From Candidatus Saccharimonadota bacterium (GTDB taxonomy: Bacteria > Patescibacteriota > Saccharimonadia > Saccharimonadales > UBA4665): a stretch of DNA of 36,132 nucleotides. Both the position numbers and the translations under genes were made by a program. Positions 402 to 36,132 of the stretch are shown piece by piece. Each line of letters opens with the position of its first letter. Position 1 is the first letter of the stretch. The notes beneath the pieces are model-generated. The model had not been told where the DNA came from, did not search any database, and worked only from the letters and a program-made list of their open reading frames with translations. Location of the stretch: positions 1 through 36,132 of the forward strand of contig JAQBRP010000020.1 in the NCBI GenBank assembly GCA_028286405.1, given 5' to 3'.

Positions 402-1010
402 ATGAAAAATGATAAAAACGTATGGCTACTGCTAACCCCTTCGTGGGTGACCAACTTTATTGGGATTACTCTTGGCATCCTCATAACTGGCGCAACAATT
501 GTATTAAGCCAGTATCAGGGCAGTGAGCTGCGTCGTCAGATATTTGAAGTACAGACTAACTCAGCAGGCTCCTCAAGTGCCTACGACAATATTACGAGTA
601 ACATCGCCGATAACAGTTTTCTGGGCGCACTGCCCCTGCTGATTGTCTGGGCCTGTGTGGGTCTGGTGGTGTACTTCTTTGCAGCGGCTATTCTTCGTTC
701 ATTTGGGCAAGCCGCAGCACTGCATGATGAGCTGGAGTATGTGCATGTAACCCGCCAGGCGCGCATTCGTGAAGCATTGTTGCACCTTGGCATACGAGCC
801 GTAGCAGCCGTCGGCTGGTTTGTATTTATTAAACTATCGCTCAGTGTACTGATTCCCTATGCCTTGGCGGCAGCAAGCATCGCATCGCATTCCTTTAGTT
901 TGCAAAATGTTGGCTACGCGCTATTAGCGGTACTCATTATTTATGGCGATGTCTGTATGCACGCCATTTTCTTGCGCTTAGTTGCGCTCAAGCCGCGATT
1001 GTTCAGTTAG
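402..1010 (+). CDS. Hypothetical membrane protein with several predicted TM segments
   Basis: 202 aa ORF with hydrophobic segments; upstream TTGCAT-N16-TACAAT. Confidence 0.7.
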   Translation: MKNDKNVWLLLTPSWVTNFIGITLGILITGATIVLSQYQGSELRRQIFEVQTNSAGSSSAYDNITSNIADNSFLGALPLLIVWACVGLVVYFFAAAILRSFGQAAALHDELEYVHVTRQARIREALLHLGIRAVAAVGWFVFIKLSLSVLIPYALAAASIASHSFSLQNVGYALLAVLIIYGDVCMHAIFLRLVALKPRLFS

Positions 1011-1737
1011 TTTCTAAGAATTTTTTGGTGTCGGTGAGCAGTTGCTGGGCGACGGCTATACCTTCGGCTTGGTGCTTTTCGGAGCGAGCATTTTCGAGTG
1101 TCATTTTGTTGATGCCGGCCGCGGTGTGCACAAAGGTATCGTTTACCACAAAGCGGTAGTAGTCGCGGTCGAGTGCCATGGTCAGTTCTTTAACGGCACT
1201 GGTCAGCCGACGCCTGGTTTCATCGGCTGGTAAGGAGCCGCGGGTGTTCATGCGCACCATCCACTCGTCAAAACTTGGTGGCAAAATGAATAAAAACAGG
1301 GCATCGGGTTTAACCGCATGAATGTGGTCGGCCCCGACCACTTCAATCTCGTTGATGGCTACTTTTTGCTCATTAACCGCGGCAGCTAACTCGCGCATAC
1401 TGATGCCGGATACTTGCTGGTTGTGAATAATTGCGGCTTCTAGGAATTCACCGGCTTCTAAATCTTGCAGGACTTCGTCCTCGGTGCGGAACCAGTACTG
1501 CTTGCCGTTTTCTTCGAGGACGCCATCGTTCACTCGTGGCTGACGAGTGGTGTCCGACACAATAAAATGATATTTACCGGACTTTAGAAGTTCGTTAATA
1601 ATTGTGTTTCGACCAGCGGAAGACGGGCCAACCAGCAGCACGAGCTGCAGGCGAGCTAGTAGATCCTTGGCACCCTCAGACACGTGGTAATCGGCAAGTA
1701 CTCGTTTAAAATCATCGGCACGGGCAAGACTGTTCAT
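1003..1737 (-). CDS. gmk: Guanylate kinase family protein
   Basis: P-loop-like VLLVGPSSAGRNTIINEL, SDTTRQPRVNDGVLEENGKQYWF, EAGEFLEAAIIHNQQVSG, and a lid region typical of guanylate kinases. Confidence 0.75.
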   Translation of the reverse strand: MNSLARADDFKRVLADYHVSEGAKDLLARLQLVLLVGPSSAGRNTIINELLKSGKYHFIVSDTTRQPRVNDGVLEENGKQYWFRTEDEVLQDLEAGEFLEAAIIHNQQVSGISMRELAAAVNEQKVAINEIEVVGADHIHAVKPDALFLFILPPSFDEWMVRMNTRGSLPADETRRRLTSAVKELTMALDRDYYRFVVNDTFVHTAAGINKMTLENARSEKHQAEGIAVAQQLLTDTKKFLETN

Positions 1738-1755
1738 TACTTGTATGATACCAGA

Positions 1756-1782
1756 CTGGCACTCTTGACTCCAGAGTGCTAG
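1756..1782. promoter_or_regulatory. CIRCE operator (HrcA site) upstream of hrcA
   Basis: CTGGCACTC-TTGACTCCA-GAGTGCTAG, near-consensus TTAGCACTC-N9-GAGTGCTAA; -35 TTGACT (1765-1770), -10 TACAAT (1788-1793), 17-nt spacer. Confidence 0.93.
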
Positions 1783-1826
1783 AGCTTTACAATTATTACT
1801 GTAAATTGCAAACTGCGACGGAGTCT

Positions 1827-2534
1827 ATGACAGAACGACAACGATTAATTCTCAACTCAATTATTGAGCAGTACGCCGAAGTGGCCAGCCCCGTCGGTTC
1901 TAGTTTGCTGGCCAAAGTTTTTGGCGTGTCATCGGCTACCATTCGTGCCGAAATGGTCGAGCTGGAACACCTCGGTTTAATTAGTCAGCCGCACACCAGC
2001 GCGGGCCGCATACCGACGGACAAAGGCTACCGTATATACGTCAACAACATTACCGAAAATACTGATCATGTACTGCCAGCCCGCCGGGCCGAAAAGGCCT
2101 TAGCCGCCCGCGTGCAAGGTGGCGGCGTGCCCGAACGGACCATCCGTAACGCGGTAGACACGCTAGTAGAGCTAACCCACAACTTGGGTATTGCTACCAT
2201 CGGTCCACAGCTGTACATGAGCGGCTTGTCTAATCTATTTGGCCAGCCCGAATTCGTGGGCGGCAACCAGGTGCGCCAAATTGCCGAACTGCTTGATAAC
2301 CTTGAGCCATGGCTGCGTGAAGCTGCGCCCAACGAACCGCTCAGTGTCTACATTGGCGGCGAAAACCCCATTGGCCGCACCGCTGGTGCTAGTTTGATTA
2401 TTAGCCGCTTCCGCAGTCCCTTCAGCGACCACAGCTACATCGGCGTGATTGGCCCAACCCGCCAGCAGTACCGGGACGTCATGAGTCTAGTACGCCACGC
2501 TGGCCAAGAATTGGAAGAGGCGCTGTATGTATAG
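1827..2534 (+). CDS. hrcA: Heat-inducible transcription repressor HrcA
   Basis: MTERQRLILNSIIEQYAEVASPVGSSLLAKVFGVSSATIRAEMVELEHLGLISQPHTSAGRIPTDKGYR..., C-terminal IGGENP...IGVIGPTRQQYRDVMSLV. Start moved from 1776 because 1776 lies inside CIRCE/promoter; ATG 1827 follows a purine-rich stretch (gacggag). Confidence 0.93.
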   Translation: MTERQRLILNSIIEQYAEVASPVGSSLLAKVFGVSSATIRAEMVELEHLGLISQPHTSAGRIPTDKGYRIYVNNITENTDHVLPARRAEKALAARVQGGGVPERTIRNAVDTLVELTHNLGIATIGPQLYMSGLSNLFGQPEFVGGNQVRQIAELLDNLEPWLREAAPNEPLSVYIGGENPIGRTAGASLIISRFRSPFSDHSYIGVIGPTRQQYRDVMSLVRHAGQELEEALYV

Positions 2535-2733
2535 GGCTATAGAAGTGGCCAGTGATGCGGTTGACCGTTGTATTGACGGGCTTGATTACGCCTTAGATAT
2601 GGTGACCCTTAATAATCCAATTGACATGGCACTACACCAGAGGACCTATCGGTTGACGGCCCTGGTTCACCAACTTGAGAGTAAATTCTTCGAAGGAATG
2701 TATGAATATTCAAACAAAAGGAGCAATAAGTAA
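2527..2733 (+). CDS. Small hypothetical protein between hrcA and grpE
   Basis: 68 aa ORF overlapping hrcA 3' end by 8 nt and abutting grpE start; co-directional. Confidence 0.6.
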   Translation: MYRAIEVASDAVDRCIDGLDYALDMVTLNNPIDMALHQRTYRLTALVHQLESKFFEGMYEYSNKRSNK

Positions 2734-3212
2734 TGACTGAAAAAAAGCCGCAAATGCCTAAGACAGATGCTAATGTAGCCGAGCTTATGACTCAAGTGGC
2801 TCAGCTAACTGAGGCACTGCAGCGCGAACGAGCCGATGCCATGAACTTGCGTCGCCGCCATGATGACGAAATGGCCAACCTGCGAGTGCGCGTTAAGGCT
2901 ACGGTCATGAAAGACTTGCTGCCGATTGTCGATAACTTTGAGCGAGCCCTCAAGCACGTGCCGGCGGATCTGACCGACAACGAGTACGTTAAAGGTGTGC
3001 AAGGTGTTGTTAAGCAGTTCGAAAAGACCCTAGCCGACCTGGGCGTCGAGCGTATCAAGACGGTTGGCGAACCATTCAACCCCGAACTACACGAAGCCGT
3101 CAGCGCCGAAGAAGGCGACGGCGACACCGAAATCGTCAGCGAAGAACTGCAGGCTGGCTATAAAATCGGCAATGACGTGATTCGGCACGCCATGGTCCGT
3201 GTAAAGTCGTAA
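2733..3212 (+). CDS. grpE: Nucleotide exchange factor GrpE
   Basis: RRRHDDEMANLRVRVKATVMKDLLPIVDNFERAL...GVQGVVKQFEKTLADLGVERIKTVGEPFNPELHEAVSAE. Confidence 0.95.
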   Translation: MTEKKPQMPKTDANVAELMTQVAQLTEALQRERADAMNLRRRHDDEMANLRVRVKATVMKDLLPIVDNFERALKHVPADLTDNEYVKGVQGVVKQFEKTLADLGVERIKTVGEPFNPELHEAVSAEEGDGDTEIVSEELQAGYKIGNDVIRHAMVRVKS

Positions 3213-3216
3213 AAAT

Positions 3217-3522
3217 ATGCAAGAACAGCTAGTGTGTAATGGTTGTGTCCTCCGTACAATAGGTGGGGATGGCCTTGGATTGATAGTAGAGACTCTCCGC
3301 GCCCGTTTAGATGATAGCGGTGATCTGCAGCAGATTGGGAAGATGGAAGGCGCGGAAGAAATTAAGCAGGCCCTCCGACTGCCGCGCCCTGAGCGCTGCG
3401 CCCGTTTAGCAGGAATGGTTGTTATCCCGAGGGAACTGGCTGGCCATAGGCAATTCTCTCGTTGTCCTGAGGTAGCCCTGGCTGGTCAACTCGTAGATCC
3501 GGCAAATAATGTAGACTTTTAG
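3217..3522 (+). CDS. Small hypothetical protein
   Basis: 101 aa ORF 4 nt after grpE; no family recognised. Confidence 0.5.
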   Translation: MQEQLVCNGCVLRTIGGDGLGLIVETLRARLDDSGDLQQIGKMEGAEEIKQALRLPRPERCARLAGMVVIPRELAGHRQFSRCPEVALAGQLVDPANNVDF

Positions 3523-3528
3523 ACACAG

Positions 3529-3555
3529 TTAGCACTCTTGACATGTGAGTGCCAA
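3529..3555. promoter_or_regulatory. CIRCE operator upstream of dnaK
   Basis: TTAGCACTC-TTGACATGT-GAGTGCCAA; -35 TTGACA (3538-3543), -10 TACACT (3561-3566), 17-nt spacer. Confidence 0.95.
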
Positions 3556-3625
3556 TTTCTTACACTAGAATCATCTAGCACGCTGCTAAACGTATTGCTA
3601 ACCGCTAACGAAAGGATTCAAAGAT

Positions 3626-5533
3626 ATGGGTAAAATCATTGGCATCGACCTCGGTACAACTAACTCGGCTATGGCCGTTATGCAATCTGGTAAACCAGAA
3701 ATTATTGCAAACTCTGAAGGTGTGCGCACCACACCGTCGGTGGTAGCTATTAACAAGAATGGCGACCGCTTAGTTGGCCAGGTAGCTCGCCGCCAACAAG
3801 TTACTAACAGTAGCAACACGATTTATGAAGTAAAGCGCCTGATTGGCCGCAACTTTAACGACAAAGAAGTCCAGCGCGACATTAAGCTCATGGGCTACGA
3901 AATGGTCAAGAGCGGCAACGGCGTAAAAGTTAAGATGGGCGACAAAGAGTACAGCCCAGAGGAAATCAGCGCTATGGTGCTCAGCAAGCTGAAGAGCGAT
4001 GCTGAGTCCTTCCTTGGTGACAAAGTGACTGAAGCGGTGATTACCGTTCCGGCCTACTTTGACGACTCACAGCGCCAAGCTACTAAGGACGCTGGTAAAA
4101 TTGCCGGCCTCGAAGTAAAGCGGATTATTAACGAACCAACTGCTGCTGCACTGGCTTATGGGCTAGACAAAGATGGCAAGGACGAAAAAATCGCCGTCTA
4201 CGACCTTGGTGGTGGTACCTTCGACGTTTCTATTTTGGAACTCGGTGACGGTGTATTTGAAGTTAAGTCGACCAACGGTGACACCCACCTTGGTGGTGCC
4301 GACTTCGACCGCGTCATTATTAACTACTTTGCTGATGAGTTCAAAAAAGAGCAGGGCGTTGACATTACAGGCGATAAGGCTGCCATGCAACGTCTACGTG
4401 ATGAAGCCGAAAAAGCTAAAATCGAGCTGTCGAGTGCCCAGGAAGTTGTTGTTAACCTACCGTTCTTAACCGCTGATGCCGATGGCCCCAAGCACTTTGA
4501 ACACAAGCTAACCCGCGCTAAGCTTGAAAGCCTGGTCGCCGACCTTATTGCTAAGACGGCTGACCCTTGCGAGAAGGCTTTGAAGGATGCCGGCCTAAAG
4601 GCCAGCGAAATCAACGCCGTTGTTCTGGTTGGCGGTATGACCCGTATGCCCGCTGTGCAAGAAAAGGTTAAGCAAATCTTCGGCAAAGAACCGATGAAGG
4701 GTGTGAACCCTGACGAAGTTGTAGCCGTTGGTGCGGCCATTCAAGGTGGTGTGCTGCAGGGCGACGTTAAAGACGTGCTGTTGCTCGACGTAACACCGCT
4801 GAGCCTTGGCATTGAAACCATGGGTGGCGTAATGACTAAGCTCATTGAGCGCAACACCACCATCCCAACCAGTAAATCTGAAGTATTTAGTACTGCCGCC
4901 GACAACCAGCCACAGGTAGAAATCCACGTGGGCCAAGGTGAGCGCGACATGATTGAAGGCAACAAGAGCCTCGGCCGCTTTGTGCTCGATGGAATCCCAT
5001 CAGCTCCCCGCGGCGTACCGCAAATTGAAGTGACCTTTAACATTGATGCCAACGGTATTTTGAACGTTACCGCCAAAGACAAGGGCACTGGCAAAGAGCA
5101 GAACATTACCATTAGTGGTTCTGGCGCGCTCGATAAAGCTGAGGTCGAAAAAATGGCCAAAGATGCCGAAGCCCACGCCGACGAAGACAAGGCTAAAAAA
5201 GAAGCTGTTGAAGCTCGCAACCTACTCGACAGCACCGTCTATCAAGCCGAAAAAATGGCTGTCGACAACAAGGACAAGATTGGCGAAGACGACCTCAAAA
5301 TCTTGAACGAAGCCGTCGAAGCCGCCAAAAAAATTGTGGCTAACGACAAGGCTACCAAGGACGAGCTGGAAGCGGCCGCCAAGGAGCTGAACGATAAGCT
5401 GATGCCAATCGGTGCCAAGATGTACGAGAACAACGAAACGGAGACGTCATCTGACAAGTCCGACGACGAAACGAAAGATGACGCCAAAGACGAGCCTATC
5501 GAAGGTGAAGTCGTCGACGAAGACAAAAAATAA
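3626..5533 (+). CDS. dnaK: Chaperone DnaK (Hsp70)
   Basis: [19 protein letters not shown]..., [36 protein letters not shown]. Confidence 0.99.
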
Positions 5534-5574: not shown

Positions 5575-6012
5575 ATGAGCCATGACGCGCTCGAAAGAAC
5601 GCTGCGTCCAGATCAAAAAGAAAAACTGGCCAAGAAAATTGACGAGGATATGCAGGCTATTGCCCGGCATTTGCCATGGTTTGTTAAAAAGGCGGCGAGT
5701 GGTCTTGTGCACACGCTCTGTGAAGTCCCGGAAGTGGGGCGACTGGAGGGTATGTATATGGGTAATTTTGCTGTTCGAATCTTAGCCGTTGGTGAGGATA
5801 CGGGCTGGTATCAAGACTTTGATTTAGTCGACTATCACCGAGCTCATGGAGGGGTGCCGGTACCTAAATCAGGATACCTCACTAGCCCAGAAGAATTAGG
5901 TGACTGTCCAATCGAGCCTGAGAAGCTGGGCCAGCTAGTAGGCACCCTCCGTGATTTCTATACCCGGCAAAACATTGATGAGCACATCGCTAATTTTGAA
6001 ACAGGTAGTTAG
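5575..6012 (+). CDS. Hypothetical protein between dnaK and dnaJ
   Basis: 145 aa ORF with TATAGT 9 nt upstream of ATG; no family recognised. Confidence 0.55.
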   Translation: MSHDALERTLRPDQKEKLAKKIDEDMQAIARHLPWFVKKAASGLVHTLCEVPEVGRLEGMYMGNFAVRILAVGEDTGWYQDFDLVDYHRAHGGVPVPKSGYLTSPEELGDCPIEPEKLGQLVGTLRDFYTRQNIDEHIANFETGS

Positions 6013-6035
6013 CACTCTTGAGTAGCGAGTGCTAA
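6009..6035. promoter_or_regulatory. CIRCE operator upstream of dnaJ
   Basis: TTAGCACTC-TTGAGTAGC-GAGTGCTAA, perfect arms; -35 TTGAGT (6018-6023), -10 TACAAT (6041-6046), 17-nt spacer. Confidence 0.97.
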
Positions 6036-6053
6036 AGTTGTACAATAGTACCG

Positions 6054-7309: not shown

Positions 7310-8284
7310 ATGATGAACAATAGTGTTACGCGTACGCTTATAATTGCTGAAGCTCTTCGACGTGGATGGCGCACCGAAGGTGTGGGGCCCAACGAGCACT
7401 TTTTAAGGATTTTACACCCCGATGGACGAAAAGAGCTGTTGTGGGGGACCATGTCCACAAGGACAACAGCCATTGGAAATATGATCTGCAGGTATAAAAA
7501 TTTAACCCTAAGCTTTGTTCAAGACTGTGGGTATGGGGTGCCGGCATTTAAAATTGTTCCTGATGAACAAACTGCCCTAGACTTTCTGGAGCAGCATAAA
7601 AAAATCGTCTTAAAGCCAGCCGATGGTCAGCGGACAGAAGGGGTTAGCGTCGGTATTACCGATGCGGCAGTCATTCCCAAGGCCTTCGCTTATGCTCAGC
7701 AAAATTCTAGCAAGAAAAGTGTTATTGCTCAGCAGCACCTTGAGGGTAATCTGTACAGGATCGTTGTATTAGATGGCAAACTGGTGGCTGCCGCTTGGCG
7801 TACTGCGGCGGCGGTTGTTGGCGATGGCCAAAGCACGGTCGATGAGCTTATAGCTCAGGCCAACCTCGATCCACGACGAGGCAAAGGAACCGATACTCCC
7901 CTCAAGACGATCGATATTACGGCCGCAGAAGAATTTTTAGGCCACGACTGTATGCAAAGTATTCCCGCTGTTTCGGACCGAATTATAGTTTCGCCCATTG
8001 ATAGTATTAGTGCCGGTGGAGAAGCGGTCAATGTCACCAATGATGTCCACGACGATTGGCGTCGTTTTGCCGAACATGTAGCCACCGAGGCTGGTTTATT
8101 CATTTGTGGTTATGATGTGATTTGTGAAGATATAGCAAAGCCTCTCAGCGATAGTTATGTACCACTACTTGAGATTAACTCTAGCCCGGGCATGAAATTA
8201 CACGAATATCCAACTGGTGGCGGTGAACCAATTCATCTCGCCCCACTACTACTCGACGCACTGTTCCCCTCTGAGAAGCATTGA
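7310..8284 (+). CDS. ATP-grasp protein resembling the cyanophycin synthetase/GshAB-type ATP-grasp domain
   Basis: IVLKPADGQRTEGVSVGI..., AAVVGDGQSTVDELIAQANLDPRRGKGTDTPLKTI..., LLEINSSPGMKLHEYP. Confidence 0.75.
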   Translation: MMNNSVTRTLIIAEALRRGWRTEGVGPNEHFLRILHPDGRKELLWGTMSTRTTAIGNMICRYKNLTLSFVQDCGYGVPAFKIVPDEQTALDFLEQHKKIVLKPADGQRTEGVSVGITDAAVIPKAFAYAQQNSSKKSVIAQQHLEGNLYRIVVLDGKLVAAAWRTAAAVVGDGQSTVDELIAQANLDPRRGKGTDTPLKTIDITAAEEFLGHDCMQSIPAVSDRIIVSPIDSISAGGEAVNVTNDVHDDWRRFAEHVATEAGLFICGYDVICEDIAKPLSDSYVPLLEINSSPGMKLHEYPTGGGEPIHLAPLLLDALFPSEKH

Positions 8285-8309
8285 CAAATAGTATATTCTG
8301 TAGTATAAT
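8281..8309 (+). promoter_or_regulatory. Consensus sigma70-type promoter
   Basis: TTGACA (8281-8286)-N17-TATAAT (8304-8309), exact consensus hexamers and spacing; ATG at 8317. Confidence 0.88.
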
Positions 8310-8316: not shown

Positions 8317-9339
8317 ATGACAACTCCTGTCAGCGAAACAATTCCTGTAGATAGCTATCAACCAACCACCGACGCAGTTGAAAAACTGCTTGATTATCCT
8401 GGTGACCGACCGGCAACCAGTTTTATGACAAATGGTACCGAGGTAGTGCTGCTACCTGAAGCGTATCAGGACTTCGTAGAGGCTGCCGACGAACGTTTAC
8501 GGGAGTTAGACCTACCAACTATCGAAGAACGCATCCCAGTATTGGCGTATGGTTCAAATGCGAGCCCGGCTCGCTTACGTGACAAAATGAGTAAATTCGC
8601 CACAGACAGTCCCGAGGCAATGCAAACGATTCCTCATTGCATGGCAACACTGCCAGATACCATCGCCGTTTGGCATGGACAACCTGGCCAAACTGGATCT
8701 ATCTTTGCCGAGTTGTACCGTGGCCCAGAAGCTCGGGGCGCAAGTTTACGGGCACATGTAGCATTTCTGACTCGAGAACAATTAGCGGCAGTCCATACGA
8801 CTGAGGGTAAGACGTATTCAGTCGCTGAGCTACCAGTTAAAATTGGTAATGAGCGGTCGTATACTGAGACCTCAGTACTCTCATACGTGGCCTTAAAGAG
8901 CCAAGTATTGTTACGTGATGAAAAGCCAGTGCTGGTCAGTAATTTGACACACAATGGTTCAACGCTGCCGGCCATGAAGGCTGAAGAGGCAGTAGTCTAT
9001 ATATTGGATCATGCCGCTCGTGATGCTGATGTCCCACATGACGTGCACGATTATGTAGCCGAGGGTATCGGGCTTAAGTCTTTAAGTGCTCGAGTTGATC
9101 GCCAAATGCGCGTTGGCCGAGTACTGCGCGGCATGGGCTTGAATCGTCCTTATGCCTTTGCTGAGGCTAACCCAGAAAGCCTGATTGGCCGAGCGGACTT
9201 TACTAGTATTCCTGGTAACCACGATAAGCATTTGTATGCAATTCCAGAAATGCTGTTACCGGCCGGCTTAGCCCGTCAGGTTTCGGCTCGAGCCCTGGTG
9301 GAGCTATCAGAACGAACCGGCCAACACATTGTTGAATAG
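8317..9339 (+). CDS. Hypothetical protein with possible gamma-glutamyl-cyclotransferase-like fold
   Basis: VLAYGSNASPARL resembles the GGCT YGSN motif; FLTREQLAAVHTTEGKTYSVAEL resembles the GGCT L..EG..Y region. Start moved from 8281 because that position is the -35 box. Confidence 0.55.
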   Translation: MTTPVSETIPVDSYQPTTDAVEKLLDYPGDRPATSFMTNGTEVVLLPEAYQDFVEAADERLRELDLPTIEERIPVLAYGSNASPARLRDKMSKFATDSPEAMQTIPHCMATLPDTIAVWHGQPGQTGSIFAELYRGPEARGASLRAHVAFLTREQLAAVHTTEGKTYSVAELPVKIGNERSYTETSVLSYVALKSQVLLRDEKPVLVSNLTHNGSTLPAMKAEEAVVYILDHAARDADVPHDVHDYVAEGIGLKSLSARVDRQMRVGRVLRGMGLNRPYAFAEANPESLIGRADFTSIPGNHDKHLYAIPEMLLPAGLARQVSARALVELSERTGQHIVE

Positions 9340-10805: not shown

Positions 10806-10847
10806 TACGTAATTACTGGGCCATTCCGCTCATGCTATTATGGGGTG

Positions 10848-11360
10848 ATGGACACAGCTCTTATTACACTCGTTGCAATTGTTATTGTGCCAGTCGTGGC
10901 ACTGATGTTGCTGCGTATTAATGCGGCCCTGGTATTCATGGCGCTCTGCCTGGGCAGCGTTCTGACACAGTTTGTGGCCGAGGACGCCAGTTGGTTTGTC
11001 GCCCTGGCGAAGCCAAATGTGCCGCAGGCTGGCTCGGTCAGCGAATCGATGGTCAAGCTTGGTTTATTGCTACTGCCACCACTACTGACAGCTGTGTTCA
11101 TGATTCGTACTGTGCACGGCGGCGGTCGCTTGCTGCTGAACGCTCTGCCGGCAGTCGGAACGGGCCTACTAGCTGCCTTGCTGGTGGTACCGCTATTGAC
11201 CCCCGGTACCGCCATTCCGATTCTAGCTTCGCCACTGTGGCAAGATGTAGTTAAGCTCCAAGACTTGATTGTTGGCTCTAGCGCATTGCTGTGTTTGTTG
11301 GTACTTTGGCTGCAACGCCCTAAGACGGGCGAGCGCAAACACCGTAAGCATCACGGCTAA
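10848..11360 (+). CDS. Hypothetical polytopic membrane protein
   Basis: About 170 aa, multiple hydrophobic helices, basic tail RPKTGERKHRKHHG; TTACTG-N17-TATTAT-N6-ATG upstream. Confidence 0.65.
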   Translation: MDTALITLVAIVIVPVVALMLLRINAALVFMALCLGSVLTQFVAEDASWFVALAKPNVPQAGSVSESMVKLGLLLLPPLLTAVFMIRTVHGGGRLLLNALPAVGTGLLAALLVVPLLTPGTAIPILASPLWQDVVKLQDLIVGSSALLCLLVLWLQRPKTGERKHRKHHG

Positions 11361-11506: not shown

Positions 11507-11583
11507 GGGCCCATAGCTCAGTCGGTTAGAGCACCTGCCGTTTAAGCAGGGTGTCGTGAGTTCGAGTCTCACTGGGCCCTCCA
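11507..11583 (+). tRNA. tRNA, apparent anticodon TTT (Lys), encoded CCA, G at position 33
   Basis: Cloverleaf: acceptor GGGCCCA/TGGGCCC, D-arm GCTC..GAGC, anticodon stem CCTGC/GCAGG with loop CGTTTAA, T-arm GTGAG-TTCGAGT-CTCAC, T73, CCA. Confidence 0.88.
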
Positions 11584-11590: not shown

Positions 11591-11617
11591 TGCCTCAGCA
11601 AAGCTGGGGCTTTTTTC
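11591..11617 (+). terminator. Rho-independent terminator after the tRNA
   Basis: GCCTCAGC-AAA-GCTGGGGC-TTTTTT. Confidence 0.85.
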
Positions 11618-11701: not shown

Positions 11702-11719
11702 GTCTCACTGGGCCGTCCA
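11702..11719 (+). repeat. Partial duplicate of the tRNA 3' end
   Basis: GTCTCACTGGGCCGTCCA matches 11566-11583 GTCTCACTGGGCCCTCCA at 17/18 positions; a related terminator follows at the same distance. Confidence 0.8.
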
Positions 11720-11727
11720 AATAAAGA

Positions 11728-11751
11728 ACGTCAGCAAAGCTGGCGTTTTTT
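11728..11751 (+). terminator. Second terminator-like hairpin
   Basis: AACGTCAGC-AAA-GCTGGCGTTTTTT. Confidence 0.75.
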
Positions 11752-11769
11752 ATTTGCTATAGTTAGAGC

Positions 11770-12222
11770 ATGAAGCCATTTAAAGAAGCGGTGTCGTTAG
11801 TAATAGTCTCTAGCGATAACAAGTTTTTAGCAGTTAAGCGCCCAGACAATCCAAGCGATGACCTAGCAGGAGTATGGGGCTTTCCGGCAGTTACTCTTAA
11901 TGAGGGCGAAAGCCATGACGACGGTGCAGCTCGTGTTGGTCGTCAGAAGTTGGGCGTTGATATTATGTTAGGCGAAAAGATAGGTGAAAGCACCCACGAC
12001 CGCGGAACCTACACGCTACACTTGACTGACTACAGGGCAGAAATTGTAGATGGCGAACCGGTAGCGCCACAAGACGACACCTCAGTAACCCAGTATTCGG
12101 AATGTAAATATTCTGATGACCCCATTATTCTTATTCCAGCAGCTAAGCGCGGCTCTCAGTGCACCCAGCTTTTTCTAGAGTCGCTTGGTATTGACTGGGA
12201 AAGTCACGCTGTTACGTTATGA
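11770..12222 (+). CDS. Nudix hydrolase family protein
   Basis: WGFPAVTLNEGESHDDGAARVGRQKLGVDI resembles a degenerate Nudix box GX5EX7REUXEEXGU. Confidence 0.7.
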   Translation: MKPFKEAVSLVIVSSDNKFLAVKRPDNPSDDLAGVWGFPAVTLNEGESHDDGAARVGRQKLGVDIMLGEKIGESTHDRGTYTLHLTDYRAEIVDGEPVAPQDDTSVTQYSECKYSDDPIILIPAAKRGSQCTQLFLESLGIDWESHAVTL

Positions 12223-13205: not shown

Positions 13206-13505
13206 ATGGGTAAATACGTATACATCTACTACGCCGGCACAGCATCTAATGGCGGCAGCGCCGAAGCATGGGGCAAGTGGTTTGGTGAGCTTGGCGACAA
13301 GCTAGTCGACGGCGGCAATCCCTTTAATGATGGTGGCCAAGCCGTGCACCAGGGCGGCGTTATGCCCGTTCAAGACAGGCCAGCAACCGGCTACTCAATT
13401 GTTTCGGCCGACAGCATGGACGAAGCCACTGAGCTAGCCAAAGGCTGTCCTTTGATGTCGGCTGCCGACGGTGCGGTCTGCGTCTACGAAGCCTTACCTA
13501 TGTAG
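13206..13505 (+). CDS. YCII-related small protein
   Basis: KWFGELGDKLVDGGNPFNDGG...YSIVSADSMDEATELAKGCPLMSAADGAVCVYEALPM; AAGGAGG ribosome-binding site. Confidence 0.6.
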   Translation: MGKYVYIYYAGTASNGGSAEAWGKWFGELGDKLVDGGNPFNDGGQAVHQGGVMPVQDRPATGYSIVSADSMDEATELAKGCPLMSAADGAVCVYEALPM

Positions 13506-13524
13506 TCTTTGCTATACTGCGCAT

Positions 13525-13845: not shown

Positions 13846-13919
13846 CGCAGATTAACGAAACATTAACTTTTAGCCGAGCCGTTCATGGTTAGCAGCTAGC
13901 CAAAACCTACACTGAATAG

Positions 13920-16640: not shown

Positions 16641-17107
16641 GAATCCTGGGCATCGACCCAGGCACCGGCATCCTCGGCTTTGGCATTATTGAAATCATTA
16701 AAAACCAACCGGTTCTAGTCGATGGCGGTGTGATCCGCACACCCGTAAAAGAAGATGATGCTGTTCGTTTACTAACGATTTACGATGAACTCAGCGAAAT
16801 TATTAAGCAAACCAAGCCCGACGTTATGTCGGTCGAAAAGTTGTTCTTTGCCCGTAACGTGACTACTGCTATGACGGTGGCCCAGGCACGGGGAGTGGTA
16901 TTACTCTGCGGCAAGCAAGCCGGACTGCCAATTTATGAATACACGCCAATGCAAATTAAGCAGGCGGTAACTGGCTACGGTAAGGCCGATAAAAAGCAAA
17001 TGCAAGAAATGGTGCGGGTCATTCTAAAGCTCAAAGAAATTCCCAAGCCCGATGATGCCGCCGACGCTCTAGCAGCAGCTATCACCTGCAGCATGGTTAT
17101 GAGATAA
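16637..17107 (+). CDS. ruvC: Crossover junction endodeoxyribonuclease RuvC
   Basis: MRILGIDPGTGILGFGIIE..., VEKLFFARNVTTAMTVAQARGVVLL..., VTGYGKADKKQMQEMV, DDAADALAAAI. Confidence 0.97.
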   Translation: MRILGIDPGTGILGFGIIEIIKNQPVLVDGGVIRTPVKEDDAVRLLTIYDELSEIIKQTKPDVMSVEKLFFARNVTTAMTVAQARGVVLLCGKQAGLPIYEYTPMQIKQAVTGYGKADKKQMQEMVRVILKLKEIPKPDDAADALAAAITCSMVMR

Positions 17108-17114
17108 TTGCTCC

Positions 17115-17690: not shown

Positions 17691-17749
17691 TTTAAATCAC
17701 GACTTTGCAGCATAAGCAATTTTGATGCCGACAGGGTATAATAAGGCTA

Positions 17750-18781
17750 ATGATTGATCGTATTGTTGACGCCGCTCTGCCACCCGAAGAACCACAAGAA
17801 GTTGAGCTAGAAGTTACGCTTCGTCCGCAAGACTTTGCCAGTTACATTGGCCAAGAGCGCTTAAAGCAAAATCTAAAGTTAGCCATTACAGCTGCTCAAA
17901 AGCGCGGTGAGCCAATCGATCATGTGCTACTATATGGCCCTCCTGGGCTTGGCAAGACAACCATGGCCTCGGTTATCGCCCATGAAATGGGTGCCCAGAT
18001 TCGCATTACTTCTGGCCCGGCCATTGAACGAGCCGGAGATTTGGCTAGTTTACTGACCAACTTACAGGACGGCGACATATTATTCATCGATGAAATTCAC
18101 CGCCTGAACCGCAACGTCGAAGAAGTGCTGTACAGCGCCATGGAAGACTTCAAGCTCGACATTATGCTGGGCAAAGGTCCGAGCGCCCGCAGCTTGCGAC
18201 TCGATTTACCCAAGTTTACGATTATTGGTGCCACCACGCGCGCCGGTGCTTTAGCTGGACCGCTGCGCGACCGTTTTGGGCATATTCACCGTCTAGAGTT
18301 TTACACCCCAGACGAAGTGCAACAGATCATACTGCGGGCCGCCGGCATACTTGACGTCAAAATTGATGCCCCTGCCGCCCAGGCCCTGGCTACTCGCGCT
18401 CGCTTAACGCCGCGCATTGCTAACCGCCTACTTAAGCGCGTTCGTGATTACGCCGACGTCAACGGTGACGGTATTATTGATACGAGCATTAGCACCCAGG
18501 CATTACAACTACTTGAAATTGACGAACTGGGGCTCGACCCAGCCGATCGTTTACTACTGCTAGCGATTATTGATAACTATGGTGGTGGGCCGGTTGGCGT
18601 CGAAACACTCGCTGCACTAACGGCCGAAGAACGTCAAACCATCGAGGACTTTATTGAGCCGTATTTACTACAGATTGGCCTGCTGGAGCGCACGCCGCGG
18701 GGTCGCAAAGTGACCGCTAAAACCTATCGTCATTTAGGACGGACGCCAGCAGCTGATGCGCCACAGTCGGCCCTGCTATAA
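17750..18781 (+). CDS. ruvB: Holliday junction helicase RuvB
   Basis: [58 protein letters not shown]..., [26 protein letters not shown]. Confidence 0.98.
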
Positions 18782-18789
18782 TGAACCCC

Positions 18790-19392
18790 ATGGAACCAAA
18801 CCAAGCACCCGAGCAGCCAGTTATCCATAACCCCCTCAGCGCCATGCGCCAAGATGAGGTCATTATTTTTGAAGTAAAGCGCCACCCTATTGGGCTGGTA
18901 TTCATGTACTTGTCGTTTGGCTTTATGCTAGTGCTGATTGGCGTGATTGCCATCATGGCACCGGACTTGTTGAGCAACTATGACACCAAGCTGGTGCGCC
19001 AAATCTCCCTGATTACTTTTCTAGTGTCATTTGTGTTTGCTGCCATCTTTACCTTTATTGGGCAGATTGTGTACAACGGCAACCGCTGGATTTTAACCAA
19101 CGATAGCTTAACCCAGGTATCGCAGCGCAGTCTGTTTGACCGGCAAAATAGTCAATTAAGTCTGGCTAACTTGGAAGACGTTACGGCGCACCAAGACGGC
19201 ATTTTGGCGCACATGTTTAACTTTGGCGTGCTTAAGGCCGAAACAGCCGGTGAGCGCAGCAAGTTCTCGATGTTGTACTGTCCGAACCCCAACGCCTACG
19301 CCCAAAAAATCCTGATGGCCCGCGAGGAATTTGAACAGAGCGGTGGCCACATGGGCAATAGCAACTCCGGCGTAAACGCCAACACCCAGTAG
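18790..19392 (+). CDS. PH-domain-like (bPH2/YdbT-type) membrane protein
   Basis: Two TM helices followed by NRWILTNDSLTQVSQRSLFDRQNSQLSLANLEDVTAHQDGILAHMFNFGVLKAETAGE. Start placed at 18790 because ATG 18781 overlaps TATAAT. Confidence 0.7.
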   Translation: MEPNQAPEQPVIHNPLSAMRQDEVIIFEVKRHPIGLVFMYLSFGFMLVLIGVIAIMAPDLLSNYDTKLVRQISLITFLVSFVFAAIFTFIGQIVYNGNRWILTNDSLTQVSQRSLFDRQNSQLSLANLEDVTAHQDGILAHMFNFGVLKAETAGERSKFSMLYCPNPNAYAQKILMAREEFEQSGGHMGNSNSGVNANTQ

Positions 19393-28452: not shown

Positions 28453-29520
28453 ATGGCAAAAGCTACAAAGACGCCTAAAGACGAATTAGACGCAGCTGCA
28501 AAAGCAGATGCCGCAAGCGGCTCAAGTACTGGCAAAGCTAAGGCCCTTGGCCTGGCTATGGACGCCATCGAAAAGCAGTATGGCAAGGGCTCAATTATGC
28601 GTTTGGGCGAATCAACCCACGCCAATGTCGAAACGGTTTCAACTGGTGCCCTGTCGCTCGATATTGCCCTTGGTGGTGGTATTCCTCGTGGCCGTATTGT
28701 TGAAGTCTATGGTCCCGAATCATCTGGTAAAACCACGCTTACCCTGCACGCCATTGCCGAAGTGCAGCGCAACGGTGGCACGGCGGCCTTTATTGACGCC
28801 GAGCACGCTCTTGACCCCTCTTACGCCAAGCGCATTGGTGTCGACATCGAGAACCTACTACTGAGCCAGCCAGACAATGGTGAACAAGCGTTGGAAATTA
28901 CCGAAACGCTCGTGCGTTCCAACGCCGTGGACTTAATTGTGGTCGACTCCGTCGCCGCGCTCGTGCCGCGTGCCGAAATTGAAGGTGATATGGGCGATAG
29001 CCTGCCTGGTCTGCAAGCTCGTTTAATGAGCCAAGCACTACGTAAGCTAACCGGTGTGATTAACCGCTCTAAAGTAACAGTTATTTTCATTAACCAAATC
29101 CGTATGAAAATTGGTGTTATGTTCGGTAACCCCGAAACCACCACTGGCGGTAATGCCCTGAAGTTCTACGCCTCAGTACGTATGGACATCCGTCGCATTG
29201 GCCAAATTAAGGCCGGCGAAAGCGTCATTGGTAACCGTACCCGGGTGAAGGTCGTTAAAAACAAGATTGCCCCGCCATTCCGTGAAGCCGAATTCGACAT
29301 TATGTATAACGAAGGTATTTCACGCACTGGTGACGTACTCGACCTGGCTGCCGCCCGTGGCATTGTCGAGAAGTCCGGTGCTTGGTATGCCTACAACGAC
29401 GCTAAAATCGGCCAGGGCCGTGAAGCCTCCAAGGCCTACCTCCAAGAAAACCCCTCTGTTACCAAGGAAATCTCCGACAAGGTTATGGCTGACGAAGCCG
29501 ACAAAACCGCCAAAGAGTAG
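28453..29520 (+). CDS. recA: Recombinase RecA
   Basis: [36 protein letters not shown]...; leader with GGAGGT. Confidence 0.99.
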
Positions 29521-30674: not shown

Positions 30675-30797
30675 ACATACAGTATAGCTAATCTAGATCG
30701 ATCTCGCTGCCAAACTGCTCGATTATTAAATAAATATTAAAAAACATAAAGCTCTCGCTTGCAACAACTTATGCCGATCACTACAATCCCCGGCAGT

Positions 30798-32243
30798 ATG
30801 AAAACCATTACGCACTATCTGCGAACCATATTGACCATTGCAGCACTTCTGGCCGCAGTGGCTATACCGGGTATGGCGCTGGCGGCAGTACCGCCCATGT
30901 CGGCCCCAGCCGGCTTAAGCATATTAGAAATCAAAATGACCGGTGACGAATTTATACTGCTACAAAACAGCACCCCCAACGACATTACTAACCTGAGCAG
31001 CTATTGGCTGACTGCCTATAATAACGTCAATCCATTGGCCGCAGGGGTTTCAAGTTCAACGCAGCAACTACCAACGGCCAGCCTACTCGCTGGACAGGCC
31101 TTATTACTTAGTGCTGATCCTATGCAAACCTGTGGTGCCAGTGTGGCCGGTAAATTATCGCTTAGTTTTGGCGATAGCGGCGGCTTTTTACAGCTTGCCC
31201 AAACCAGCCTCAGCCCTAGCGGTGCGATTATGCAGACGCCCGGTGACGTGGTGAGTTGGAGTAGTGGCACCACCGGAATTATTCAAAACCTGCCTTCCAA
31301 TACCAAAGATCCGAAGGCGGTGTATTATCGTTACCTGAATGGTGGCAGCTATGCCTGGCAGCAAGCTGACCTCGACCTGAACAATCTCTGCCAGTTGAAT
31401 GTGTTGGTGGCCGGCGGCTCGGGGTCGTCATCTGCTGTAACTCCCCTCACCTTGGCTGCGACTTCGCCGCCGGCTACCATTCTGGGGACTGTCAATGCAG
31501 GCGGTGATGACGACGAAATTGTCGCCCAACTGCCAGCGGCCGACATTGGTCTGAACGCCCCGCAACTCAGCGAACTGCTACCCAACCCTATAGGGACAGG
31601 TAATGATGGCACCGACGAGTTTATTGAACTATATAACCCAAACGCCAAACCGTTTGACCTGACGGGCTTTAGTCTACTCAGCGGTATGACCACCACGCAT
31701 AGCTACACCTTCCCGAACGGAACAATGCTAGCACCGAGCAGCTTCCAAGCTTTTTATAGCGAAGAAACCAAGCTCAGCCTGAGCAATACCGCTAGCCAAG
31801 TGGCGTTGCTCGACCCGTTCGACAATGTCATTAGCAGCACCGATGCCTACGCCAAAGCCAAAGATGGCATCGCCTGGGGGCTTGCCAAAGGTAAGTGGTA
31901 CTGGACCACCCAGCCAACACCAGGAGTTGCCAACGTCATTAAGCAGCCTCCAGTTTCTAAAACAGCCAGTCAATCCAAGAAGACGAGCAAGAGCAAGGCA
32001 GCGGCTATTAAAGGTGCAAAAACCACTAAACTAACAGCTAGTGCGACAGCTGGTAACTTTGAAGAAGAGGAGGCCGGTACGCCAGTGCACGCCTGGGTGC
32101 TTGCCCTGATTGCCAGTGGCGCGCTACTATACGGAGCGTATGAGTACCGACGTGACATTGCAAATCGATTGTTCCAGCTTAGAACAAAGCTTGGCGCTCG
32201 CCGAGCGACTTGGCCAGCGCTTAAAGGGCGGCGAAGTGATTGA
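30798..32243 (+). CDS. Putative surface-anchored protein with lamin-tail domain(s), signal peptide and C-terminal TM
   Basis: LSELLPNPIGTGNDGTDEFIELYNPNAKPFDLTGFSLLSGMTTTHSYTFPNGTMLAPSSFQAFY...; signal sequence ITHYLRTILTIAALLAAVAIPGMALA; C-terminal HAWVLALIASGALLYGAYEYRR. Start moved from 30759 because that is the -35 TTGCAA of TTGCAA-N17-TACAAT. Confidence 0.75.
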   Translation: MKTITHYLRTILTIAALLAAVAIPGMALAAVPPMSAPAGLSILEIKMTGDEFILLQNSTPNDITNLSSYWLTAYNNVNPLAAGVSSSTQQLPTASLLAGQALLLSADPMQTCGASVAGKLSLSFGDSGGFLQLAQTSLSPSGAIMQTPGDVVSWSSGTTGIIQNLPSNTKDPKAVYYRYLNGGSYAWQQADLDLNNLCQLNVLVAGGSGSSSAVTPLTLAATSPPATILGTVNAGGDDDEIVAQLPAADIGLNAPQLSELLPNPIGTGNDGTDEFIELYNPNAKPFDLTGFSLLSGMTTTHSYTFPNGTMLAPSSFQAFYSEETKLSLSNTASQVALLDPFDNVISSTDAYAKAKDGIAWGLAKGKWYWTTQPTPGVANVIKQPPVSKTASQSKKTSKSKAAAIKGAKTTKLTASATAGNFEEEEAGTPVHAWVLALIASGALLYGAYEYRRDIANRLFQLRTKLGARRATWPALKGRRSD

Positions 32244-32607
32244 GCTGGTCAGTGATTTGGGTGGCGGTAAAACGACATTTGTTCGTGGCCTGGCTAAAGG
32301 CATCGGCAGCAGCGACTTGGTTAGTAGTCCGACGTTTACGCTGAGTAACGTCTATAAGGGTACAAAGTTAACTATTAATCACTTTGATTTTTACCGCTTG
32401 GCCAAACCGGGCATTATGCGTGAAGAACTAGCCGAAGTCCTCACCGACCCGCAAGCGGTAACAGTTATTGAATGGGCCGATATTGTCCACGATGTACTAC
32501 CCCAAGAACGGCTTACCATGCACATCACCGCCACTGGCGAAGCCAGTCGGCGCTATAACCTAACGGGTGGCCCCGGGTTACAATACCTGACAGAAGGACT
32601 TACCTAA
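32140..32607 (+). CDS. tsaE: tRNA threonylcarbamoyladenosine biosynthesis ATPase TsaE
   Basis: LALAERLGQRLKGGEVIELVSDLGGGKTTFVRGLAKGIGSSDLVSSPTFTLSNVYKG...NHFDFYRL. ATG 32140 after GGAG. Confidence 0.95.
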   Translation: MSTDVTLQIDCSSLEQSLALAERLGQRLKGGEVIELVSDLGGGKTTFVRGLAKGIGSSDLVSSPTFTLSNVYKGTKLTINHFDFYRLAKPGIMREELAEVLTDPQAVTVIEWADIVHDVLPQERLTMHITATGEASRRYNLTGGPGLQYLTEGLT

Positions 32608-32999
32608 TGTTTATACTGACAATTCGTACCGACAAGCAAGAAGCCGAGATTGGCTTATCCGACGACCACAAGCAGCTGGTCTACGAAAAATGGCAAGCGC
32701 ATCGCGAGCTGGCCGAAACCATTAATAAGAAAATTATTGACGTACTAATGAGCGGCGGTATACGGCTGCATGAGCTAAACGGCATCGTGGTTTTTAAAGG
32801 CCCCGGTAGTTTTACTGGCCTGCGAATTGGCCTAACCGTCGCTAATGCATTGGCCTATAGCCTAACCATTCCAGTGGTTTCGACCATGGAAGATGACTGG
32901 CTAGCCAGCGGTATCGATCGTCTGCTGGGCGATCAAGATGAAAAAGTTGCTATGCCTGAATATGGCGCACTGCCAAATATTACGACACCAAAACATTGA
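32607..32999 (+). CDS. tsaB: Short TsaB-like tRNA t6A biosynthesis protein
   Basis: LHELNGIVVFKGPGSFTGLRIGLTVANALAYSLTIPVVS; adjacent to tsaE. Confidence 0.85.
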   Translation: MFILTIRTDKQEAEIGLSDDHKQLVYEKWQAHRELAETINKKIIDVLMSGGIRLHELNGIVVFKGPGSFTGLRIGLTVANALAYSLTIPVVSTMEDDWLASGIDRLLGDQDEKVAMPEYGALPNITTPKH

Positions 33000-33172
33000 C
33001 CACGCACTCTCGTGCAGCGTATAGTTTAAACAGGAACTTGTAGTTGAGAGACGACTACGTCCTGATGTCAGAACTGGTAAGATATTTATAAATTTCAGAT
33101 TTTCAGGTAGTGGGCTAGTGAAGTGATAGCGATTGTCCATACCTGGACTCTGCAGGAATAGAAAGGAATACC

Positions 33173-34687
33173 ATGGTTATTCTATCCATAGTGCTCGCTG
33201 TGGTTGGGTTAGGTGCGGGATTTGGTGGCAGCACGCTGCTCTACCAAAAACGCCAAGGCGCAACCGAGGCAACCATTAAAAAAGACAAAGAAAAAGCCGA
33301 ACGCGAAGCCGAAAAGCTTATTAGCAAAGCCCGCGAGGACGCCCACAAGGTAGCCGAAGAAGCTCGCCACGACGAACAAACTCGTCGTAACGAATTCAAA
33401 GATATTGAAAAGCGCTTAATCCAGCGCGAAGAATCATTGGACCGCAAACTCGACGAAATCGATAAGCGTGCCGAAAACCTCCGCCAAGGCGAAGATGAAG
33501 TCGAAAAGCTCAAGAACGAAATCCGCGACATTCGCACCAAGCAACAAGACAAGCTCGAAAAAATTGCCAAGCTCAGCAAAGCCGACGCCGCCGAAAAGCT
33601 GATGCAAATGACCGAGCGTGACATTAAAAACGACTTGCTCGGGCTGGTTAATAAATTGCAAAACGAAGCCCGCGAAAATGCCGAAGAGCAAGCGGCACTT
33701 ATTTTGACGACCGCCATGGAACGCATGAGTAGCGAAGTGACTGCTGAGCGCACCGTATCGTCAGTTAAGCTGGCCGACGAAGACATGAAAGGCCGCATTA
33801 TCGGCAAGGAAGGCCGTAACATCCAGGCCTTACAGCGTGCCACCGGCGTCGACATCATGGTCGACGACACCCCTGGTTACATTGTGCTCAGCAGCTTCGA
33901 TCCAATCCGCCGTGAAGTTGCCCGTCAGGCAGTAGAAATGCTGATGAAAGACGGTCGCATTCACCCAGGCCGCATTGAAGAAATTGTCGACAAAGCCCAG
34001 AAGGTCGTTGAAAAAGATGTTATTAAGGCTGGTGAAGACGCCGCCCGCGAAGTCGGTGTACTGGGCATTCCAAAGGAAGTCCTGCACCTGCTTGGTGAGC
34101 TGCGCTTCCGTACCAGCTTTGGTCAAAACGTTCTGAAGCACTCGACCGAAATGGCCCACATTGCCGGCATGATCGCTGAAGAACTCGGCGCCAACGTCAA
34201 GACCGCCAAGTATGCCGCTTTGGTTCACGACCTCGGCAAGGCTTTGACCCATAAAATGGAAGGCAAGCACCACCACATTAGCGGTGAAATGCTGCGCAAG
34301 TATGGCGCTCCCGAAGAAGTTGCCCTGGCTGCCGAACAGCACCACGACGACGTCGAGGCCACAACTGTCGAAGCTTTGATTGTCCGCGTGGTTGACGCCA
34401 TTAGCGCCAGCCGTCCCGGTGCCCGCAACATCAGCGCCGAGAATTTTGGCGAACGTATGCGTGACCTCGAAAACGTCGCCAATGGCTTCCCTGGTATCGA
34501 AAAATCCTACGCTATTAGCGCTGGTCGCGAAGTTCGGGTGTTCGTAAGGCCCAACCAAATCGACGACCTCAGCGCCATTAAACTGGCCCGCGACATCGCC
34601 ACCAAAATTGAGTCATCCATGCAGTACCCCGGTACCATCAAGGTGAACGTCATTCGCGAAACCCGCGCCATTGAATTTGCAAAATAG
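33173..34687 (+). CDS. rny: Ribonuclease Y
   Basis: N-terminal TM, long coiled coil, KH domain (GRIIGKEGRNIQALQRATGVDIMVDDTPGYIVLSSFDPIRREVARQ), HD domain (ALVHDLGKALTHKMEGKHHHISG). Confidence 0.97.
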   Translation: MVILSIVLAVVGLGAGFGGSTLLYQKRQGATEATIKKDKEKAEREAEKLISKAREDAHKVAEEARHDEQTRRNEFKDIEKRLIQREESLDRKLDEIDKRAENLRQGEDEVEKLKNEIRDIRTKQQDKLEKIAKLSKADAAEKLMQMTERDIKNDLLGLVNKLQNEARENAEEQAALILTTAMERMSSEVTAERTVSSVKLADEDMKGRIIGKEGRNIQALQRATGVDIMVDDTPGYIVLSSFDPIRREVARQAVEMLMKDGRIHPGRIEEIVDKAQKVVEKDVIKAGEDAAREVGVLGIPKEVLHLLGELRFRTSFGQNVLKHSTEMAHIAGMIAEELGANVKTAKYAALVHDLGKALTHKMEGKHHHISGEMLRKYGAPEEVALAAEQHHDDVEATTVEALIVRVVDAISASRPGARNISAENFGERMRDLENVANGFPGIEKSYAISAGREVRVFVRPNQIDDLSAIKLARDIATKIESSMQYPGTIKVNVIRETRAIEFAK

Positions 34688-34711
34688 CCCAAGCGGTATA
34701 AAGTAAAAATA

Positions 34712-35389
34712 ATGGCAATCGAAGTTGATCAGCTCAGACAACAGTTGGGATTGCGGGAGCATGACCTCGTACTGTCTGAAAGTGATCAGAGTGGTTTTGC
34801 GCGTAACGCCGAATACAATGGGCTTATGGCAGGGCTGGAGTGCTTTATGGGTCGTATCGTGCAAGAGCGTACGATGAGTTTCTATGAAGTATCGGGTTTC
34901 CATACTGAAGACGAAAGTACAATCCGGGCGCTGATTGCGCCATACGATCACTTCCGGGAAATCGATGAATCAACTGGCATGTTCTCGTATGTCAGAATGC
35001 TTGTAACTCAAGATTTCAAGAAGCAGGAAGAGCGTCCGCTGCTGTGCAATGACTTTGTGATTGATACGGTGAGGCGCCAGATGGGCTGGCGTCAACAGAC
35101 GGTACAGTTGTCCCCCAACAAAGGGGGACAGCTTGTATGGCAATGCAGCAAAGATGACGTCCCAAAGCTACTCCAAGGGAATAATAGTGAAGAGCGCCAC
35201 TTAGGACAAACAAGTATTACCGTTCATATGGGTACGGCTTATGAGCTCGATCCGCCAATTAGTGATACAGACCAAAAAGTTATCGCCGCCAAAAAGTTTC
35301 TAGAACATATGAAACACATTTTCAGAAACGGCAGCGAACTGCCAATTAATGCCCTTAGCTTTGTGCGACATGATAAGCTGCTCGGCTAG
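34712..35389 (+). CDS. Hypothetical protein between rny and ymdB
   Basis: 225 aa ORF; TATAAA 9 nt upstream of ATG; no family recognised. Confidence 0.6.
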   Translation: MAIEVDQLRQQLGLREHDLVLSESDQSGFARNAEYNGLMAGLECFMGRIVQERTMSFYEVSGFHTEDESTIRALIAPYDHFREIDESTGMFSYVRMLVTQDFKKQEERPLLCNDFVIDTVRRQMGWRQQTVQLSPNKGGQLVWQCSKDDVPKLLQGNNSEERHLGQTSITVHMGTAYELDPPISDTDQKVIAAKKFLEHMKHIFRNGSELPINALSFVRHDKLLG

Positions 35390-35410
35390 TATCCAGGTAT
35401 ACTGGTTATA

Positions 35411-36132
35411 ATGAACATTTTATACATTGGTGATGTCATGGGCGAACCAGGCATTCGTCTCATTGAACGGCAGTTGCCCCAGATTCGCCGCGACCACCAG
35501 GTAGATTTTGTGGTGGCCCAAGCCGAAAACACCACCGAGGGGAGGGGCATTTCGGTAGCCGACTTTGCCCGCCTACGTAAGGCTGGTGTCGACTTTTGCA
35601 CTGGCGGTAACTGGAGCTTGTGGCGCGACGAAATTGTGCCAGCTATGAGTGATCCGGCGCAGCCGATTATTCGTCCAGCCAACTATCCAGACGGCACGCC
35701 CGGTCTCGGTTACAAGTACGCCGACACGCCCAAGGGTAAAGTTTTGGTTATCAGCTTACTCGGTCAGATTGTTGGGCGCGATGCCGCCAAACCACTCGAT
35801 AATCCTCTGCAAACCATTGATCGTATTCTGGCAGAAGCTGAGTCGCATGTTGCCACCGTGGTGAACTTTCATGGTGACTTCAGCAGCGAAAAAGTAATCA
35901 TTGGTCACTATTTGGACGGCCGGGTGTCGGTTGTGGTTGGCGATCACTGGCATGTGCCGACGGCCGATGCCCGTGTGCTTCCGGGTGGCACAGCGCACCA
36001 AACCGACGTTGGCATGTGTGGTGTACTGAACGCTTCTCTGGGTATTACCTTCGAGTCGGTGGTACCACGCTGGCATAGTGGCGTTAAGACGCGCAACCAG
36101 CTGGCAACCGACGGGCCGTACCAGTTTAACGC
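35411..36132 (+). CDS. ymdB: YmdB-family metallophosphoesterase, truncated by window end
   Basis: MNILYIGDVMGEPGIRLIERQLPQIRRDHQVDFVVAQAENTTEGRGISVADFARLRKAGVDFCTGGNWSLW...VVNFHGDFSSEK...VVVGDHWHVPTADARVLPGGTAHQTDVGMCG. Not in ORF track because no stop is present. Confidence 0.93.
   Translation, partial: MNILYIGDVMGEPGIRLIERQLPQIRRDHQVDFVVAQAENTTEGRGISVADFARLRKAGVDFCTGGNWSLWRDEIVPAMSDPAQPIIRPANYPDGTPGLGYKYADTPKGKVLVISLLGQIVGRDAAKPLDNPLQTIDRILAEAESHVATVVNFHGDFSSEKVIIGHYLDGRVSVVVGDHWHVPTADARVLPGGTAHQTDVGMCGVLNASLGITFESVVPRWHSGVKTRNQLATDGPYQFN

Follow-up and report, generated by a model that had tools for sequence, protein, structure and literature searches.

A -10 element close to the start codon predicts leaderless genes in Saccharibacteria

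In the genome of a Candidatus Saccharimonadota bacterium, about one gene in five should have a promoter so near the start codon that a leaderless mRNA is expected. We consider it highly probable (roughly 90 %) that a sigma-70-type -10 element sits 6–8 nt before these start codons and yields leaderless mRNA, alongside genes led by a Shine-Dalgarno (SD) sequence. Judged by comparison of genomes, the pattern is conserved across the whole class Saccharibacteria and patchy in the wider phylum.

Genome and data sets

The window, the whole 36,132 nt stretch of DNA that was analysed, comes from an assembly of 635,982 bases in 20 contigs that is ~75 % complete. The RuvB encoded in the window shares 89 % identity with its nearest named relative and the other best hits were mostly Saccharibacteria, which are ultrasmall bacteria of the candidate phyla radiation (CPR). 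The gene-level sample (293 kb, 239 genes) combined the window with 13 further stretches of this genome, drawn from eight other contigs. Genes were called with a codon-pair scorer that is blind to upstream sequence and independent of the list of open reading frames (ORFs), and all start codons are computational predictions. A gene was counted as a peak gene when a hexamer with no more than one mismatch to TATAAT had its first T at -14, -13 or -12. Dinucleotide shuffles (300) and internal in-frame ATGs served as background controls, and in counts over whole genomes the pattern TATANT-N6-8-ATG was set against TATANT-N16-18-ATG as background.

Position of the -10 hexamer

The hexamer was present at -14 to -12 in 50 of the 239 genes, compared to a mean of 7.5 in the shuffles (sd 2.4, maximum 15 in 300). 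The first T lay at -14, -13 and -12 in 13, 14 and 23 genes, respectively, versus approximately 2 genes at each of the other positions, and only 11 of 1239 internal in-frame ATGs (0.8 %) were preceded by the hexamer. The peak persisted when the window was left out (44/203 genes), was seen under both start-choice rules, and in the whole genome TATANT-N6-8-ATG was found at 130 sites versus 47 for N16-18. The same pipeline found no peak in 200 kb of Escherichia coli K-12 (2 vs 3.2). Deinococcus radiodurans belongs to a lineage known for leaderless genes, and 150 kb of its plasmid MP1, used as the positive control, gave a TANNNT peak (8 vs 1.7). In-frame stop codons were rejected as the source of the peak, as they could touch only -14 and no peak was seen at -11 and -17.

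The initial annotation had claimed that -10-like hexamers end 6–7 nt before many start codons, and had named a histogram of hexamer positions compared with shuffled upstream sequence as the check. In the sample from this genome the histogram has a sharp peak at -14 to -12 and the attempted refutation failed. The fixed distance between hexamer and start holds, though the peak spans N6–N8 rather than N6–N7. The pattern was also described as widespread, which is appropriate for ~18–20 % of genes above background, though these are not a majority; about 7 of the 50 peak genes would be expected by chance, and the shuffles yield ~3 % of genes.

Candidate leaderless genes in the window

For all 12 cases that had been listed, the hexamer, spacer and start codon were read back exactly as described, and 11 of the 12 hexamers have no more than one mismatch to TATAAT, the comEC hexamer TACACT having two. 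The weaker candidates put forward with them (7178, 7310, 5575, 30798 and 34712) are still weak. In the lines below, the fractions are orthologues with the -10 at -14 to -12, followed by the number expected where available.

1745..1750, minus strand: gmk candidate -10 TATCAT, N7, ATG 1737; CIRCE immediately upstream, same strand
6041..6046, plus strand: dnaJ candidate -10 TACAAT, N7, ATG 6054; 13/32 orthologues (expected 0.5)
8281..8309, plus strand: predicted full promoter TTGACA-N17-TATAAT, N7, ATG 8317; both hexamers perfect consensus
10836..10841, plus strand: candidate -10 TATTAT, N6, ATG 10848; 4/6 orthologues
11718..11756, plus strand: terminator-like hairpin of 18 bp with a U-rich 3' arm; -22.7 kcal/mol, z = -6.2
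11758..11763, plus strand: candidate -10 TATAGT, N6, ATG 11770 (NUDIX gene); the hairpin abuts the -10
13513..13518, plus strand: candidate -10 TATACT, N6, ATG 13525; read directly
13908..13913, plus strand: comEC candidate -10 TACACT, N6, GTG 13920; 6/11 orthologues at no more than one mismatch (expected 0.1)
17103..17108, plus strand: ruvA candidate -10 GATAAT with TG extension, N6, ATG 17115; 52/74 orthologues (expected 2)
17737..17742, plus strand: ruvB candidate -10 TATAAT, N7, ATG 17750; 30/78 orthologues (expected 2)
18777..18782, plus strand: TATAAT, N7, ATG 18790, doubtful; 3/9 orthologues
30681..30686, minus strand: PRC-barrel gene candidate -10 TATACT, N6, ATG 30674; 30/33 orthologues (expected 0.4)
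35398..35403, plus strand: ymdB candidate -10 TATACT, N7, ATG 35411; 1/5 orthologues

The hairpin at 11718..11756 ends 1 nt short of the -10 of the NUDIX gene, and a more distant upstream origin for the transcript of this gene is improbable. A second terminator-like hairpin (11592–11610) lies just after the tRNA-Lys gene (11507–11583), which is the sole Rfam match in the window.

The ruvA hexamer GATAAT overlaps the stop codon of ruvC, yet its conservation in orthologues supports a role as promoter element. Strong conservation upstream of ruvA is confined to the -10 and extended -10. The two columns that separate the TG from the stop codon (hexamer positions -1 and 0) vary, which makes coding constraint an improbable cause. 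The case at 18790 is weak. The hexamer is there as described, but the same TATAAT runs into ATG 18781. This ATG overlaps the stop codon of ruvB (TAATG), and translational coupling would explain the site equally well. ATG 18790 is one of two candidate starts for this gene, the other being ATG 18781.

CIRCE operators and heat-shock genes

The HrcA/CIRCE heat-shock operator is a canonical inverted repeat with hrcA adjacent, and the window likewise has the canonical inverted repeat with hrcA adjoining. The core GCACTC-N9-GAGTGC is found at three sites in the window, matching the inverted repeat TTAGCACTC-N9-GAGTGCTAA.

1759..1779, no strand assigned: CIRCE (putative HrcA operator), GCACTC-N9-GAGTGC, between the divergent gmk (minus) and hrcA (plus)
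3532..3552, plus strand: CIRCE of dnaK with internal -35 TTGACA; -10 TACACT at 3561–3566, ATG 3626
6012..6032, plus strand: CIRCE upstream of dnaJ; the spacer holds a -35, TTGAGT (6018–6023)

The presence of hrcA was recognized from the HrcA domains PF01628 and PF03444 in 1776–2534. GTG 1776, the hrcA start in the ORF list, falls inside the CIRCE at 1759–1779, and the true start is thus probably downstream, for example at TTG 1806.

Two features differ from the canonical HrcA/CIRCE arrangement. Here the -35 is often embedded in the 9 nt spacer (GCACTC-TTGACA-N3-GAGTGC), and the predicted -10 of dnaJ and of gmk sits 8 nt past CIRCE, beside the ATG. The distance from TTGAGT in the CIRCE spacer to the -10 of dnaJ is exactly 17 nt, and the predicted dnaJ promoter is fixed independently by the operator with its internal -35. 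The CIRCE, -35 and -10 of dnaK have the same geometry as those of dnaJ, but dnaK has a leader of ~53 nt with a weak SD-like site (AAAGGA), so both modes of initiation would occur with one promoter design. Among Saccharibacteria, CIRCE spacers often contain TTGACA, such that operator and -35 are fused.

Promoter anatomy and relation to the Shine-Dalgarno sequence

Though not selected for, an extended -10 was common in the peak genes, with G at hexamer position -2 in 36/50 and TGn in 25/50, and the -35 was mostly weak. The TGn, the 17 nt spacing to a -35 (at 8317 and at CIRCE) and the footprints in orthologues point to the peak hexamers being sigma-70 promoter elements.

When the 239 genes were sorted by both signals, 5 had the -10 peak and an SD, 45 the peak only, 86 an SD only and 103 neither. 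Hence, 45 of the 50 peak genes are without an SD, and the two signals are mutually exclusive (Fisher p = 1.3e-6). With a fixed TA signal at ~12 nt that stands above the shuffled background and no SD in most peak genes, this set is predicted to belong to the leaderless (TA-led) class. That two modes of initiation coexist had been suggested from the window, and the two gene sets, both in one genome and excluding each other, bear this out. The SD leaders reported for recA, the pilin gene (pilA), yebC and the gene at 13206 are indeed present, and two of them are given here as contrasts.

13206..13505, plus strand: SD-led contrast gene, AAGGAGG
28453..29520, plus strand: recA, SD-led contrast; SD in 12/12 orthologues, -10 peak in 0/12

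Among yebC orthologues an SD was found in 51/66 and the -10 peak in 3/66. The anti-SD sequence CCTCC is kept in the 16S genes of relatives, which argues for SD-led translation in parallel; the incomplete genome itself yielded no 16S gene. We weighed a special translation apparatus and rejected it, with nothing distinctive in IF3 or bS1. This genome encodes IF3, as do 38/41 genomes of the class. The bS1 match covers positions 18–347 of the 516-position profile and is under the curated cut-off, as it is in all 41 class genomes and in 12 of the 14 control genomes.

Conservation across Saccharibacteria

In the class-level set of 80 Saccharibacteria loci, one per species, the peak was found in 254 of 1144 genes versus ~45 expected, noting that these loci have the ruvB neighbourhood in common and the genes are not all independent. 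The TG extension was present in 128 of 255 peak hexamers from these loci. Among the listed cases ymdB is the exception in conservation, and the ruvB orthologues without the peak are mostly SD-led or have neither signal. Columns further upstream have near-zero information (means of 0.02 bits for ruvA and 0.06 bits for the PRC-barrel gene), in contrast to the informative hexamer columns. The hexamer is position-locked in orthologues whose flanks have diverged.

Interpretation and alternative explanations

The peak, the TGn, the mutual exclusion of peak and SD, the CIRCE-linked -35, the terminator-like hairpin before the gene at 11770 and the orthologues all support the leaderless reading proposed for the window. 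In this predicted mechanism, sigma-70-type promoters, often with an extended -10 (TGnTATAAT) and a weak or missing -35, have the hexamer ending 6–8 nt before the start codon. This would place transcription initiation by RNA polymerase at, or within 1–2 nt of, the A of the ATG and produce a leaderless mRNA. As in other leaderless systems, ribosomes would initiate on the 5'-terminal AUG with no SD duplex. The same cell would use SD-led initiation for other genes.

The alternative that survives best is compatible with leaderless mRNA, namely that many genes have dual promoters, the near -10 giving a leaderless transcript and a farther one a leadered transcript. SD-like motifs in 5/50 peak genes and the differing operon position of ruvB orthologues fit such an arrangement, and an additional promoter of this kind may lie upstream of some peak genes. 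That this extends to many genes is unlikely, given the 45/50 peak genes without an SD and the predicted terminator that would block read-through at 11770.

We think it very improbable that the -10 elements are real and the true start codons lie downstream, in which case the transcripts would be leadered and the annotated starts wrong. The starts are predictions, with several candidates in some genes (the gene at 10848 has an alternative start at 10845), but starts picked without upstream information still give the peak at -14 to -12, the start codon is ATG in 47/50 peak genes (94 %), the N-termini of ruvA, ruvB and dnaJ orthologues start at the same codon and most peak genes are without an SD.

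A role as non-SD translation enhancer has been proposed for some A-rich leaders, and the A/T-rich element could be an enhancer within a leader and not a promoter. Non-SD A/T-rich initiation signals do exist in other phyla, and AT-rich ribosome binding sites have been described in the FCB group (PMC9581028). However, the specific form TGnTATAAT, the CIRCE-linked -35 at 17 nt and the terminator-like hairpin that stops 1 nt short of the -10 at 11758 are at odds with an enhancer and make it, if anything, slightly less credible than misplaced starts. Finally, though AT-rich upstream regions do raise the match rate, chance matches near starts were ruled out by the shuffle and orthologue tests, given 50 genes versus 7.5, a sharp 3 nt peak that E. 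coli lacks and the conservation in orthologues.

Relation to known leaderless systems

TA-led leaderless genes, with TANNNT/TATAAT ~12 nt before the start and no SD, were described by Zheng et al. 2011 (PMC3160421), and the groups with >20 % TA-led genes were Actinobacteria and Deinococcus-Thermus. The genes found here share the -10 distance, the absence of an SD, the coexistence with SD genes and a similar share of the genome, and differ in the prominent TG of the extended -10 and in the predicted CIRCE-regulated cases. A search of PMC3160421 for CPR genomes found none. In Deinococcus-Thermus, experiments showed that the ORF-adjacent motif acts as the -10 of leaderless mRNA, in most cases with no -35 (PMC12340547); the geometry is the same as here, in a different phylum. 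The domain-wide scan in that work left out unclassified and symbiotic species and thus probably did not cover Saccharibacteria. Mycobacteria likewise mix leaderless and SD-led genes in one genome (PMC3898074, PMC4633059), but their transcription starts were mapped by experiment, whereas ours are predicted from sequence alone. Hence, leaderless genes are already known elsewhere, and in the open-access literature we found no report of leaderless genes or of anti-SD loss in Saccharibacteria or the CPR.

If the leaderless reading is correct, Saccharibacteria and much of the CPR would be another large group rich in leaderless genes, which would bear on start-codon annotation in thousands of genomes, on the reading of promoters and on ideas about early translation initiation. 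The reading is directly testable, since cultured Saccharibacteria exist, TM7x among them.

Wider Patescibacteria and the anti-SD sequence

TATANT-N6-8-ATG was enriched relative to N16-18 in 63 of 116 Patescibacteria genomes at 5 % FDR, strongly in several families and not at all in others. At gene level, two families combined a -10 peak with no SD enrichment, represented by G025 (peak 29/171 vs 2.2; SD 7 vs 14.2) and G106 (peak 33/134 vs 4.1; SD 10 vs 11.4). In contrast, G012 has SDs and little -10 peak. Despite its strong peak and lack of SD enrichment, G106 (L213-L216, L249-L254) keeps CCTCC in its 16S gene.

In the order that includes G025, 16S 3' ends could be read for 30 genomes, which cover 30 families, and all 30 are without CCTCC right after an apparently intact helix 45, a typical tail (L231, L263-L291) being GTGGAATATTTCAA. 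An intron displacing the anti-SD was rejected because CACCTCC or CCTCCTT was not found within ~140 nt downstream, other than isolated matches in 4 loci. Five further genomes of this order gave a pooled -10 peak of 48/261 vs 13.2 and SD counts of 24 vs 19.8, and one member, G248, has SD-like enrichment (15 vs 4.6); one of these genomes was partly masked. These findings are a lead, not proof, for anti-SD loss. The order may have given up the SD system, with patchy leaderless transcription across the phylum making the loss tolerable, a proposal we hold tentatively and rate at somewhat under even odds. If true, an order that lacks the anti-SD would let initiation without SD pairing be studied in a natural bacterial setting. 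Altered anti-SD sequences were also seen in other Patescibacteria, namely CATCTCCTTA in G105 (L227), AACACTTAAAC in G043 (L307) and ATACCGCCTTT in G046 (L309).
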